Source of the DNA: Akkermansiaceae bacterium
GTDB taxonomy: Bacteria > Verrucomicrobiota > Verrucomicrobiia > Verrucomicrobiales > Akkermansiaceae
DNA length: 64,000 nucleotides
Assembly: GCA_022424905.1 (NCBI GenBank)
Contig: JAKMGP010000029.1
Span: 20,635 to 84,634 of the forward strand
Reading direction: 5' to 3'
The notes under the pieces are model-generated. The model saw nothing but the letters and a program-made list of their open reading frames with translations, ran no database searches and was not told where the DNA came from. Of the stretch, positions 34,732-64,000 are shown piece by piece. The position numbers and the translations under genes were made by a program. Within the stretch, counting starts at the first letter, position 1; the number at the start of each line of letters is the position of its first letter.

Positions 34732-35205
34732 TTACATCTGCCCATCTAGGAGGACCTTCAGCTCCCCTTGGAAGCTTACCAAATCTGCTTCCGAAGGCTG
34801 ATAGCCTGGCTGGTCGGGATCAATCGAGGGGCGGCCCATTTCATCGATAAGCCATAAACCCTTCATTCCATCACTAAATGTGACCGTTCCGCTTACCATT
34901 GAGCCAGGGCGTGCAACTTGATCAAGGCTAGCTGAGACGCTTCCACCACTTGGTTTTGCTCCTTCAAGATCTGGTTCCTCCTCAACCTGTGGGACTTCAA
35001 TGACTTCTTCAGTCTGAACTTCCTCCTCGTCCACTTGAAAATTTAATTCTAGATCTAAAGAAAGGAATCGCGTGTCCATATAAGTTGCCTTGAAACCGAA
35101 ATCATCATTCAGCCGTCGTTGAACATCGGCCATCTGAGCACCATCAGCAACCCATCCTTTAACCATCTCAACTTGTTCGCTGCTTAAATCGCTAACGCTA
35201 ACCAT
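34732..35205 (-). CDS. hypothetical protein
   Basis: Open frame with acidic linker; no recognised domain. Confidence 0.6.
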   Translation of the reverse strand: MVSVSDLSSEQVEMVKGWVADGAQMADVQRRLNDDFGFKATYMDTRFLSLDLELNFQVDEEEVQTEEVIEVPQVEEEPDLEGAKPSGGSVSASLDQVARPGSMVSGTVTFSDGMKGLWLIDEMGRPSIDPDQPGYQPSEADLVSFQGELKVLLDGQM

Positions 35206-35248
35206 GCACAAGAGCTAAGCGCCTCAAATAAAAAACCCAAGACTCAAT

Positions 35249-36376: not shown

Positions 36377-37321
36377 TTACTTTAGGTCTCTTAACAATTC
36401 AAGCCATGACTCTGATTCTCTCACCCAAGAGAATAACGGAAGCCGATCAGCTGACAGGCGGCTCCACTCATCAAGATCTACCCGCTGGTGCATGATAGCT
36501 TCGAGCGCTTTAGCCATTCCCCCTTCCTCAAAATAGCCCGGATAATCATCACCCAGAAGCCCTACGTTTCCCTCGATCCTACTTGCCAGAACCGGAACAC
36601 CCATCGTCATCGCCTCCAAAACCGCGTTTGCTCCTCCTTCCAAAATCGAACTATTAATGGTCAGTGAACTTTTGGCACACAGGGCCAGAGACTCCCCTCT
36701 TGGTAATCCTCCGCACCACCGATACCTTTTATCCTCTTCCATCCAAAATTCCGCTGTTTTGCGCATCTTCTCATCTAAAGCCTGTCCAATTTGCCAAACT
36801 TCAAGATCAGACCACTCCGGATACTGAGCTAGGGTTTCAATCGTCAAAAATGGTCGTTTTACGGGTCGCAGATGTCCCACCACTGAAATCACAAACGGCG
36901 ATTGGCTCGGGGTGGCTTTCACAGCTATCGAATCGAGACTTGAGCGTATCACGACCGTCTTATCTCGCACTTTCTCGGGAAGTTTTTGAATCGCGGCTTC
37001 TTGGGGCACAACGATCCGATCCGCCAGCTGCAGGGCGTCCTCCCCAATTTGAGACCCCTCCGGGAGCCCCTGATAAATATCGGTGCCCGTCAGCAAAATG
37101 ATGACTTTCCCTTTCGGTGTCTTCTTTTTGAAATCAAAAACCGCTGGGGCACCTTTAATGGCATGGAGTGTGATCAGAATATCGGCGAGCTCACCATCAT
37201 TACCATGCGCACCTCTTGCCTCGATACCTCCTTCATTTAGCATCGCCACGATTCGGTCAGTGGTAACCGAGTTTCCCTTCAGCTCGGAGAGCGGATAAGG
37301 TGACGCTACGCAGACCTTCAT
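36377..37321 (-). CDS. glycosyltransferase resembling SenB (selenosugar synthase of the selenoneine pathway)
   Basis: KGNSVTTDRIVAML, LHAIKGA, ILLTGTDIYQ, VVGHLRPVKRPF, EGGANAVLEAMTMGVPVLASRIEGNVGLLGDDYPGYF: match remembered SenB family signatures. Confidence 0.7.
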   Translation of the reverse strand: MKVCVASPYPLSELKGNSVTTDRIVAMLNEGGIEARGAHGNDGELADILITLHAIKGAPAVFDFKKKTPKGKVIILLTGTDIYQGLPEGSQIGEDALQLADRIVVPQEAAIQKLPEKVRDKTVVIRSSLDSIAVKATPSQSPFVISVVGHLRPVKRPFLTIETLAQYPEWSDLEVWQIGQALDEKMRKTAEFWMEEDKRYRWCGGLPRGESLALCAKSSLTINSSILEGGANAVLEAMTMGVPVLASRIEGNVGLLGDDYPGYFEEGGMAKALEAIMHQRVDLDEWSRLSADRLPLFSWVRESESWLELLRDLK

Positions 37322-38730
37322 AACGGAATGACCTCGTAACCCTCGCGACCGTCTTTCACCATCCAGCCATTCTCAGCCAACTCGTCACGATAACGATCCG
37401 AAGCCGCCCAATCCTTGTCCTGACGTGCCTTCCAACGATTCTCGGCAAGTTTGGCGATCTTCTCCGGAACCTCAATTCCCTCGGGTTCGGGCAAGGTCAA
37501 ACCAAGAGAAGCAAGAACCGTAAAGAATCCGTGCCAATCATCCAGAGATCTGGCATTTTTGAGGTTAGCAAAAAGTTCGCCCAAAGCTGCTGCCGTATTT
37601 AAGTCCTCGTTCAATCGCTTGAAGGCACCCGCAAAAACACCTAAGCTCCCACCCTTTGAAAGTTCGCGGTATCCCGGAACGGCATGATCTTTTGCTGCTT
37701 TTGCTAACCTTCCGAGAGCCTCGCGAGCAGCGTGAAGAGATTCCATCGTAAAGTTCAATTGCTTACGATAGTTCGCCCCAATTAAAACATAACGAACTTC
37801 CATCGGCGACCAACCTTCATCCGCTAAATCGCTCAAGGTATAAAGAGTTCCACTCGACTTCGACATTTTCTTGCCATTCACCAGCAGGTGGGTGGAGTGA
37901 AACCAATGCCGAGCAAATTCCCCACCACACGAACACTTAGATTGTGCCAACTCGTTTTCGTGGTGCGGAAAAACCAAGTCCTCCCCACCGCTATGAAGAT
38001 CGAAAGTCCTACCCAGGTATTTTAATATCATCGCCGAACACTCAAGGTGCCAGCCAGGCCGCCCCTCTCCCCACGGACTACTCCAATAGTTGTCACCGTC
38101 CTCGTCACGACGACTTTTCCAGAGAACAAAATCGGCGATATTATCCTTTGCGTATTCATCAGAATTAGCTCGCTCGTTCTGGGTCTTTCCCAAATCAAGC
38201 TCACGTTGATCGAGACGCGATAGTTTTCCATATTCAGAAAATGAAGTGATTTTGAAATAGACTGAGCCATCCTCTGATGCATAAGCGTGGCCCTTCTCCA
38301 ATAATTCTTCGATCATCGCAACCTGCTCTGGGATATGTTCCACCGCACTTGGTTCAATGTGTGGCTTAAGACAATTAAGAGCCTCGCAATCAGCGTGAAA
38401 CCTGTCGCGCCATTGAGCCGTAAAATCAGCCAATTGCATGCCAGCGCTTACCGAATCACGGATCGTCTTATCATCCACGTCCGTTATATTACGGACATGC
38501 TTAGTTTTCATACCCCCTAACTCGAGAACCCTCCGCATCACGTCTTGTATCACGAAAGTTCGAAAATTACCGATATGGGCCGGGCCATATACCGTCGGCC
38601 CACAGCAATAAAACCTGAAGACTTTACCATCCACCGGCTCAAGGGGAACGACTTCGCGCGTTAGAGTGTCAAACAACCTCACGGGGCGAGCATTAACAGC
38701 CCTCGTGTTCCGGGCAATCGAATTTCCCAA
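37318..38730 (-). CDS. cysS: cysteinyl-tRNA synthetase
   Basis: [43 protein letters not shown]. Confidence 0.95.
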
Positions 38731-41128: not shown

Positions 41129-42265
41129 GTGAGCTTTGCCAGCCAGTTCAAACCACTCATGGAGGACCCGACTCCTCTCATGCGGAGATTTCGGAAATTA
41201 ATTGATCCCTGCCCTGATCGACAACTCGAGAGCATGGCTCGTCAAAGCCAAACTCTGACTCGCCGCCACTTTGGAAAAACGATGCGTCTCTTTGCACCTC
41301 TCTACCTATCAAACGAGTGTGTAAACAACTGCCAATATTGCGGATTTTCCCGTAATAATCCTATCCTTCGCACCACTCTTACCGTTCCTCAGGTTGTCGC
41401 TGAGGCCAAATATCTTTACGATTTAGGCTTTCGAAACATTCTTCTCGTGGCCGGCGAGCACCCTAAATTTGTTTCAGATGGCTACCTTCAAGAGTGTGTC
41501 AATGCACTGAGAGCCTTAATTCCAACGATTGGAATAGAGGTCGGCCCGATGGAGGATCATCAATACAGCGAGTTGGTCGATCACGGGGCTGAAGGCCTCA
41601 TCGTTTATCAAGAAACTTATCACCAAGAAACTTACGAAGTCCTTCACACCGCTGGCCCTAAGAAGAAATTTAATTGGAGGCTCGATTGTCCTGAGCGCGC
41701 TTACGCTGGAGGCTTTCGCAGAATCGGAATAGGTGCCCTTTTCGGCCTCGCCAACTGGCGCTACGAAGCAATCGCGCTGGCGACTCACCTTGACTATCTA
41801 CTCCGTCATTGTTGGAAAGCCAGCTTCACTATCGCTTTCCCTCGTATGAGACCCCATGCGGGGAACTATCAATACACCCCCAATCCAGAATTATCCCTAG
41901 ACGAACGAAGCCTAGTGCAATTACTCACTGCATTTCGCATTTGCTTTCCTCAAGTTGGAATTGTGCTTTCAACCCGCGAACCAGCAGAACTTCGCGACTC
42001 ACTCTTCCCTCTCGGCGTTACTCATATTTCGGCTGGTTCTCAAACAGACCCGGGGGGCTACACTGGCGCCGGAACCGAGAACCTACATTTAACGGTCAGG
42101 GGACTTCGGGTTGAACTTGAAAAACAACAAGTTCATGATCGGGCGACCGGTCAATTCGAAATCGATGACAAGCGACCGGTCGATGAAATCGCCGGCATTC
42201 TCAAAAATCAGGGATTTGACCCAGTATGGAAAGACTGGGATCCCGCAATTCTTACTTATTCATGA
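41129..42265 (+). CDS. thiH: 2-iminoacetate synthase (radical SAM)
   Basis: APLYLSNECVNNCQYCGFSRNNPI (CxxxCxxC), VGPMEDHQYSELVDHGAEGLIVYQETYH. GTG start or ATG 41159 possible. Confidence 0.94.
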   Translation: MSFASQFKPLMEDPTPLMRRFRKLIDPCPDRQLESMARQSQTLTRRHFGKTMRLFAPLYLSNECVNNCQYCGFSRNNPILRTTLTVPQVVAEAKYLYDLGFRNILLVAGEHPKFVSDGYLQECVNALRALIPTIGIEVGPMEDHQYSELVDHGAEGLIVYQETYHQETYEVLHTAGPKKKFNWRLDCPERAYAGGFRRIGIGALFGLANWRYEAIALATHLDYLLRHCWKASFTIAFPRMRPHAGNYQYTPNPELSLDERSLVQLLTAFRICFPQVGIVLSTREPAELRDSLFPLGVTHISAGSQTDPGGYTGAGTENLHLTVRGLRVELEKQQVHDRATGQFEIDDKRPVDEIAGILKNQGFDPVWKDWDPAILTYS

Positions 42266-42462
42266 CTCTCACAATCAACGGAGAAAATCGCAAATTCAAC
42301 AATGGCCTCAATTTACAGGCCCTCCTCGTAGAGTTAGGACTTGCTGAGAAACCAGTGGTGGTTGAACTCAACCAGAAAGCACTCGCGCCTTCTGAGTTCA
42401 AATCCCAGAAGCTCACGAACAATGATCAGCTTGAGATCATTACAATTGCCGCCGGAGGATAA
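42262..42462 (+). CDS. thiS: sulfur carrier protein ThiS
   Basis: 66-aa ubiquitin-fold protein ending IAAGG; overlaps the thiH stop. Confidence 0.9.
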   Translation: MTLTINGENRKFNNGLNLQALLVELGLAEKPVVVELNQKALAPSEFKSQKLTNNDQLEIITIAAGG

Positions 42463-62198: not shown

Positions 62199-63080
62199 CT
62201 ATCCGCCGTGCCAATGGAGTTTCTTTCGAAGGGTCTCATAGAAAGAATGTCCAGGGAGCCGCACCAATCTAAGGTTTGCGTCGTGGCAAGTGACTCTAAC
62301 AACACTGTCTTTTTCAATTCGGAGAATATCCCGGCCATCAACTGAAAAAAGAATCGATTCCTCTCCATCGCCAGCCGGTGCAAGCTCAATCACAGATTTT
62401 TCACCGACCACTAACGAGCGGTTACTCATGCTGTGGGGGCAGATCGGAGTGATGACAAAGACTCCCGCGTGGGGACCAAGCAGGGGCCCACCTGCCGCCA
62501 TTGAGTAGGCAGTCGAACCTGTCGGTGTCGCCACAATTAATCCATCAGCTCGATAATGATTTAAAAGCTCCCCATCCACCCTCGCTTCAAGCGAAACCAA
62601 GCGCCCAGTCTCTCCCCGCATCAACACCGCTTCGTTGAGAGCTAAAAATTGGTGTGCCTCACCACCTTCCTCAGTCATCTCTACCTTAAGCATACTTCGC
62701 TCAACGATATTCATTTCTCCTTTAGCCAAATGATCGCCAAGCAAATCAATTTCCTCATCAGTACAAGCTGTTAAAAAACCAAGCGTCCCAATATTCACCC
62801 CCGCAATCGGAATCGGCCGAGGCCCTAAACGATGGAGGGTCTTAAGTAAGGTTCCATCCCCTCCAAGCGAAATGACAAGGTCAGCTCCATCAGCAAAATC
62901 CAACTTGCCCACCTCCTGAATCAAACGTGCTGTTTCTTCTTCGAGAACGACCTCGATGCCACGCTCTAAAAGACATTCTCGAACATTTCGCACCGCCATC
63001 GGGGCATCTGTCTTCCGGGGATGAGCAACGATAGCGACCTTCACGGCCGTTACCCTAGCACTCACGCTGAACTCAGGCAA
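62199..63080 (-). CDS. nadK: NAD kinase
   Basis: LVISLGGDGTLLKTLHRLG, NIGTLGFLT, DGLIVATPTGSTAYSMAAGGPLLGP. Confidence 0.93.
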   Translation of the reverse strand: MPEFSVSARVTAVKVAIVAHPRKTDAPMAVRNVRECLLERGIEVVLEEETARLIQEVGKLDFADGADLVISLGGDGTLLKTLHRLGPRPIPIAGVNIGTLGFLTACTDEEIDLLGDHLAKGEMNIVERSMLKVEMTEEGGEAHQFLALNEAVLMRGETGRLVSLEARVDGELLNHYRADGLIVATPTGSTAYSMAAGGPLLGPHAGVFVITPICPHSMSNRSLVVGEKSVIELAPAGDGEESILFSVDGRDILRIEKDSVVRVTCHDANLRLVRLPGHSFYETLRKKLHWHGG

Positions 63081-63122
63081 TCGTTCCTTGCCTGACGAGA
63101 ATTAACGCGACATCGTTGACCC

Positions 63123-64000
63123 ATGCCATTGACAACGCAAGAAGCCGACCGCTACCAGCGACAAACCATGCTCAGAGAGCTCGGCGAAGCGGGACAAGAG
63201 CGTCTCAGAAACGCTTCTATTCTCTGTATCGGGAGCGGTGGATTGGGCTCACCAGCCCTGCTTTATCTCGCTGCCGCTGGCGTCGGGAGAATTGGCATCA
63301 TTGATCCTGACTCGGTCGACCTGTCTAACCTACACCGCCAAATCCTCCACGACACCGATCGCGTTGGTACCTCCAAAATGGAGAGCGCTAAGGCGAGACT
63401 CTACCAAGTGAACCCTCATGTGGAGATCATCCTTCATGAGGGTCGGTTCGAGCCAGACAATTGCCTTGATCTACTGGAGCCTTACGACGCTGTTCTCGAT
63501 GGCTCCGACAACTTCCCGACTCGCTTCGCTGCAAATGACGCGGCATTTTTCCTCAAGAAACCTCTCATACATGGAGCGATCTTCCAATTTGAAGGACAAG
63601 TCACAGTCTTCGCACCCCATCTCGGTGGACCCTGCTATCGTTGCCTACTACCGGAATCTCCACCCGAGGGAGCAGTCCCAACATGAAGCGAAGCAGGTGT
63701 CCTGGGCGTGCTCCCCGGAATTGTTGGAAGCCTTCAAGCCATGGAAGCAATCAAACTTCTCGCAAATCTCGGGCATCCCCCGCTTGGCAGACTGATTCAC
63801 TATCGTGCCCTTTCGACCTTATTCCGGGAAATTAAAATCAAACCTGATCCAGACTGCCCACTTTGCGGGGATAACCCCACTATTACCAAACCCATCACTG
63901 ACAAAAAAGAAATGACAGAGCTTCCCGAAATCACGACTCTTGAACTGCGCAAAATTCTTACCGATGGCTTCGAAGGCATCTTACTCGACGTTCGCGAACA
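63123..64000 (+). CDS. ThiF/MoeB/HesA-type E1-like adenylyltransferase with C-terminal rhodanese domain, in-frame TGA at 63684-63686 (candidate selenocysteine), runs off the right edge
   Basis: GSGGLGSPALLYLAAAGVGRIGIIDPDSVDLSNLHRQILH; frame continues past TGA with SEAGVLGVLPGIVGSLQAMEAIKLL...CPLCG...ELPEITTLELRKILTDGFEGILLDVRE with no further stop. Confidence 0.85.
63702..63718 (+). promoter_or_regulatory. putative bacterial SECIS hairpin downstream of in-frame TGA
   Basis: CTGGG-CGTGCTC-CCCGG: 5-bp stem, 7-nt apical loop with GU at loop positions 2-3; loop starts 21 nt after the TGA. Confidence 0.45.

Follow-up and report, generated by a model that had tools for sequence, protein, structure and literature searches.

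A probable SenB-type selenosugar synthase encoded outside a selenoneine gene cluster in an Akkermansiaceae genome

The selenosugar synthase SenB is represented by solved structures from Variovorax paradoxus (PDB 8jjn, 8jjq, 8jjt, 8rz3 and 8fbx) and by RsSenB (8k5u). Residues of the Variovorax enzyme (VpSenB) have been mapped by Huang and others, and mutation revealed N20, H58, T83, T85, R155, K158, E231 and E239 to be important (PMC10891094). Selenoneine and ovoselenol are the only selenium small molecules with dedicated bacterial pathways named in a 2026 review (PMC13188914). The stretch of DNA analysed here (64,000 nucleotides, hereafter the window) belongs to an Akkermansiaceae-type genome (Verrucomicrobiota; 4.05 Mb in 347 contigs, 92.8% complete) and had been predicted from its letters to carry a SenB-like gene outside a selenoneine cluster. 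This description holds for the window, in which both SenA and the SelD-like SenC are absent as originally claimed; it also holds genome-wide, to the extent that an assembly of 92.8% completeness can tell. The gene and its neighbors are as follows:

37318..38730, minus strand: cysS; TIGR00435, 405.8 bits over the cut-off; the only cysS found in the genome
36377..37321, minus strand: senB-like Se-glycosyltransferase (selenosugar synthase), 314 aa; assigned by TIGR04348 (245.6 bits), by sequence and fold matches to SenB entries of the PDB and by active-site residues
35249..36367, minus strand: APH-fold sugar-kinase-like gene; PF01636; 9 nt after senB
34732..35211, minus strand: last gene of the operon, for a small conserved protein that matches nothing in Pfam or NCBIfam

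Family, fold and active site of the window protein

The SenB motifs quoted in the original prediction, which gave no strand, all fall inside one 314-aa open frame that spans exactly 36377-37321 and is read on the minus strand (37321-36377). The top NCBIfam family for this protein is TIGR04348 SenB, matched at E 6e-73 over profile positions 1-309 of 310, and the runner-up is NF038229 (GPMC-system GT4) with 112.8 bits. The preference for SenB over ordinary GT4 families on which the original prediction depended is therefore borne out by the profiles (245.6 against 112.8 bits), while Pfam recognizes generic GT4 domains only. In a sequence search of the PDB, SenB entries made up the best four of five matches (E about 1e-37). 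The score is nevertheless below the curated equivalog cut-off of TIGR04348, which is 300 bits. The same is true of four SenBs from this genus and family that are SenA-linked, each located directly before senA, which score 288-296 bits; thus, judging from these sequence scores, the cut-off likely leaves out true SenBs in these genomes and is a poor judge there.

An AlphaFold2 model of the window protein, built with 15 related sequences, has a mean pLDDT of 93. When this model was searched against PDB folds, ranks 1-15 were all occupied by SenB (TM 0.79-0.92, best E 6e-25), and the next structural relatives were BshA and MshA, at E about 1e-14 and 15-17% identity. The predicted structure thus places the protein nearest to solved SenB, with ordinary GT4s appearing only at about 1e-14.

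The window protein and 93 relatives were aligned to the solved SenB sequences and the mapped sites were read off. In this alignment the window protein is identical to VpSenB at N20, T23, H58, T83, T85, D86, R155, V157, K158, E231 and E239; in its own numbering the active-site residues are N17, T20, H53, K56, T78, T80, D81, R152, V154, K155, E228 and E236. The residues reported for selenophosphate and UDP binding are thus retained. R61 is replaced by Lys, which is common among other SenBs too, and H235 also differs, a position at which Asn is usual for the SenB family. K158, E231 and E239 are part of the general GT4 signature. Because of this, the telling sites are those of the selenophosphate pocket, namely N20, H58, T83 and T85, all of which are kept.

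A scan of named genomes yielded 507 SenB-related stretches. A tree built from 94 sequences places the window protein among 24 verrucomicrobial sequences that form one branch (support 93/87). No senA was found near these 24 clade members in the flanks fetched, which mostly extend about 6-10 kb to each side and are shorter at contig ends. The branch is also distinguished at Gln131, a residue that contacts C4' of the donor. Gln131 is present in all 31 SenA-linked SenBs and in 37 of 39 other SenA-free SenBs, but in none of the 24 members of the verrucomicrobial clade; in the window protein it is Ser. Because VpSenB mutants at Q131 and H235 retained partial activity (PMC10891094), the replacement suggests an altered donor preference and not a lost function.

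SenA-free SenBs are found elsewhere too, most prominently in Planctomycetota and in relatives of Thiobacillus, and for some of those outside the clade senA may be located further off. In these other phyla no common non-backbone neighbor of the SenA-free SenBs was seen, the only synteny being taxon-specific. Near some SenA-free senB genes, one in the Akkermansiaceae family (L043) and four in Planctomycetota (L118, L119, L123 and L127), there is a thioredoxin/TlpA-like frame that seems to be interrupted, and a Sec TGA may be the cause. A separate in-frame TGA occurs in the SenA-linked SenB of genome G039 (L003 1123-2061), after the GN motif and ahead of the second strand. It sits at a poorly conserved place and is probably a sequencing error or the mark of a decayed gene, although selD of this genome likewise contains an in-frame TGA.

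Selenium genes and SenA in related genomes

The original prediction had proposed that a selD elsewhere in the genome might supply the enzyme. Such a gene is indeed present on a contig other than that of the window (G000:C8:22286-23209, 381 bits, with an in-frame TGA near the N-terminus), and the host genome has selA and selU as well. To place this in context, 58 related genomes were scored for a full SenB (E < 1e-50) and for selD, selA and selU. At least one of the three selenium genes is found in all 30 genomes with SenB and in 12 of the 28 without it (Fisher p = 4e-7, indicative only since the genomes are related). With the host's own genus left out the counts are 10 of 10 and 5 of 21 (p = 7e-5, likewise indicative), and part of the association is shared ancestry inside one genus. 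Four SenB genomes had no selD match, but because they possess selA and/or selU this absence probably reflects assembly gaps. The strict co-occurrence of SenB with selenium genes speaks for selenium, and not sulfur, as the element used, and it disfavors the thiosugar product that the original prediction had entertained. A phylum-wide sample contained SenB in 1 of 194 genomes, a number too small to strengthen the statistics.

The SenA model NF041186 was run against the same set of 58 genomes and found no SenA in the host genome, the assembly of which is 92.8% complete. The sole match to the model there is a secreted-looking 357-aa FGE-domain protein without the DinB part, in contrast to a true SenA of the same genus, which has both FGE and DinB parts. 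Among the 58 genomes nine contain SenA, and all nine of these contain SenB (p = 0.002). SenA is absent from 12 of the 16 genomes with a cysS-linked senB, most of the 12 being 85-97% complete. The four others (G004, G006, G020 and G021) have an unlinked SenA, and the cysS-linked SenB is their only SenB. This latter arrangement is good, though indirect, evidence that SenBs of the cysS-linked type make a genuine substrate for SenA and that, of the two partners, SenA is the dispensable one. In G020 and G021 the unlinked senA is adjoined by a divergent gene (L198 5095-6132 and L199 5118-6206); a rhodanese domain is evident in the L199 protein, and the L198 protein looks similar.

Hercynine is made by EgtD. 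A search with TIGR03438 gave no EgtD in the 58 genomes, though the positive control of this model gave no signal; with PF10017, for which the controls were positive, there was one weak match in the 58 (G044, 27 bits, a genome without SenB) and none in the host genome. No other EgtB-like enzyme was found in the host genome. The SenA genes at L036, L037, L039 and L092-L100, from the genus and its relatives, score 407-417 bits, just below the cut-off of 420, and their genomes have no detectable EgtD as a source of hercynine. The ovoselenol enzymes, which selenate histidine, are relatives of SenA. SenA genes in genomes without detectable EgtD could fit as ovoselenol enzymes instead.

The cysS neighborhood and other features of the window

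The stop of cysS overlaps the start of senB by 4 nt (ATGA) in the window, and the same -4 overlap is seen in 14 of 15 genomes; because of this overlap the two genes are probably translationally coupled. Across the genomes compared, the start of the kinase gene ranges from 23 nt before to 14 nt after the senB stop. The cysS-senB-kinase operon is present in 16 of 27 genomes of the same genus. In seven same-genus genomes the kinase directly follows cysS with no gene between, and senB presence at this site requires three changes on a tree of cysS and the kinase. The two genes are thus adjacent even in the absence of senB, and the gene order is therefore an inherited backbone into which senB was inserted or from which it was lost. 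Two candidate partners were considered and rejected: the kinase as a selenosugar kinase, its position being a matter of synteny given those same seven genomes, and CysS as an MshC-like ligase, the gene being the single cysS copy of the genome and above the CysS cut-off.

The original prediction had also pointed to a Sec-type TGA at 63684 as a hint of selenium metabolism. This TGA is real and stands where the MoeB/ThiF motif GAVPT-C-SEAGVLG has its Cys. It lies in frame within a gene for a MoeB/ThiF-like E1 enzyme (PF00899; window 63021-64000, plus strand), which reads GAVPT-U-SEAGVLG. Because a Sec-containing MoeB is listed in the 2026 review (PMC13188914), the protein is likely a member of a known selenoprotein family. 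Neither tRNA-Sec nor SECIS was detected in the window by ARAGORN and Rfam, and no SECIS-like fold stood out 3' of the TGA (RNA folding z 0.88). Elsewhere in the window, thiH and thiS are adjacent (41129-42462, plus strand) and belong to a gene set for the thiazole of thiamine.

A probable SenB whose product may not become selenoneine

The family, the fold, the active site, the selenium genes and their co-occurrence with SenB, as observed above, indicate that the window protein is probably a true SenB-type selenosugar synthase, its predicted product not being headed to selenoneine. The enzyme would bind a UDP-sugar, presumably UDP-GlcNAc or UDP-Glc, in its C-terminal Rossmann domain, and selenophosphate from the genome's own SelD in an N-terminal pocket. 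As has been established for the Variovorax enzyme, a C1-Se bond would form with inversion and hydrolysis of the Se-P bond would then release a 1-seleno-sugar. Because neither SenA nor another EgtB-like enzyme nor EgtD was found, this selenosugar would not be turned into selenoneine in the Akkermansiaceae host. It may be an end product (a selenium store, a redox buffer or an exported form), or it may donate selenium to another pathway. Counting against the preferred reading are the score below the cut-off, the loss of Gln131, the general GT4 nature of K158, E231 and E239, the share of the selenium association that is owed to common descent inside one genus, and a possible SenA in an assembly gap.

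The last of these points leads to a different account, in which the protein is an ordinary enzyme of selenoneine or ovoselenol synthesis that acts in trans with a SenA encoded elsewhere, missed by the assembly or recently lost. The four relatives with an unlinked SenA and no second SenB are consistent with this, as is a host assembly in 347 contigs at 92.8% completeness. However, gaps cannot account for all 12 of the SenA-free genomes with a cysS-linked senB, the SenA model matches nothing in the host but a secreted-looking FGE-domain protein that lacks the DinB part, and EgtD was counted in 0 of 58 genomes, SenA carriers included; this account is therefore considered unlikely.

Still less probable is a thiosugar synthase with the same fold and chemistry that draws on thiophosphate or another sulfur donor. 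VpSenB does take thiophosphate weakly, with 10-20-fold discrimination against it (PMC10702425), and the clade has Lys for R61 and Ser for Q131. However, SenB is confined to genomes with selenium genes among the 58 related genomes and is found in 0 of 193 mostly selD-negative genomes of the wider phylum sample, and in four genomes the cysS-linked SenB is the sole SenB alongside SenA. An equally small chance is given to a diverged GT4 that uses a different acceptor and may be linked with the sugar-kinase-like gene and CysS in a mycothiol-like pathway for a low-molecular-weight thiol. The conserved order and overlapping genes of cysS, senB and the kinase would agree with this, as would BshA and MshA being the next structural relatives. 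Against it, cysS is a single housekeeping copy, the kinase follows cysS in the seven same-genus genomes without an intervening senB, the residues of the selenophosphate pocket are conserved, and by fold the protein is much closer to SenB than to BshA.

If the window protein is a true SenB, a stably inherited SenB without SenA in selenium-using genomes suggests that selenosugars can be end products or can feed another pathway, and the organisms and the gene in which to examine their fate are now named. A bolder and more tentative reading, which may well prove wrong, is that the SenB clade of Verrucomicrobiota has become independent of SenA, has an altered donor pocket and produces a selenosugar, or a metabolite derived from one, other than selenoneine and ovoselenol. 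If true, the clade would be an undescribed branch of the bacterial selenometabolome.

The bacillithiol and mycothiol GT4 enzymes BshA and MshA are like the window protein in their GT-B fold, UDP-GlcNAc chemistry and GT4 Lys and E-x7-E motif, but differ in sequence (15-17% identity), in fold score (E about 1e-14 against 6e-25 for SenB) and in having another acceptor pocket. The solved SenBs share the fold (TM up to 0.92), the UDP and selenophosphate residues and about 31% identity in structural alignment; unlike them, the window gene lies outside any senCBA cluster, its genome yielded neither SenA nor EgtD, and its product has Ser in place of Gln131 and scores below the TIGR04348 cut-off. The SenBs linked to SenA in the genus and order (G002, G005, G009, G033 and G039) are of the same family, score 288-324 bits, below or near the cut-off, and come from genomes that likewise have selenium genes; two that were compared, at L036 and L038, share 32-37% identity with the window protein. 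These SenA-linked SenBs differ from it in belonging to another branch of the tree, in keeping Gln131 and in having senA directly after them.
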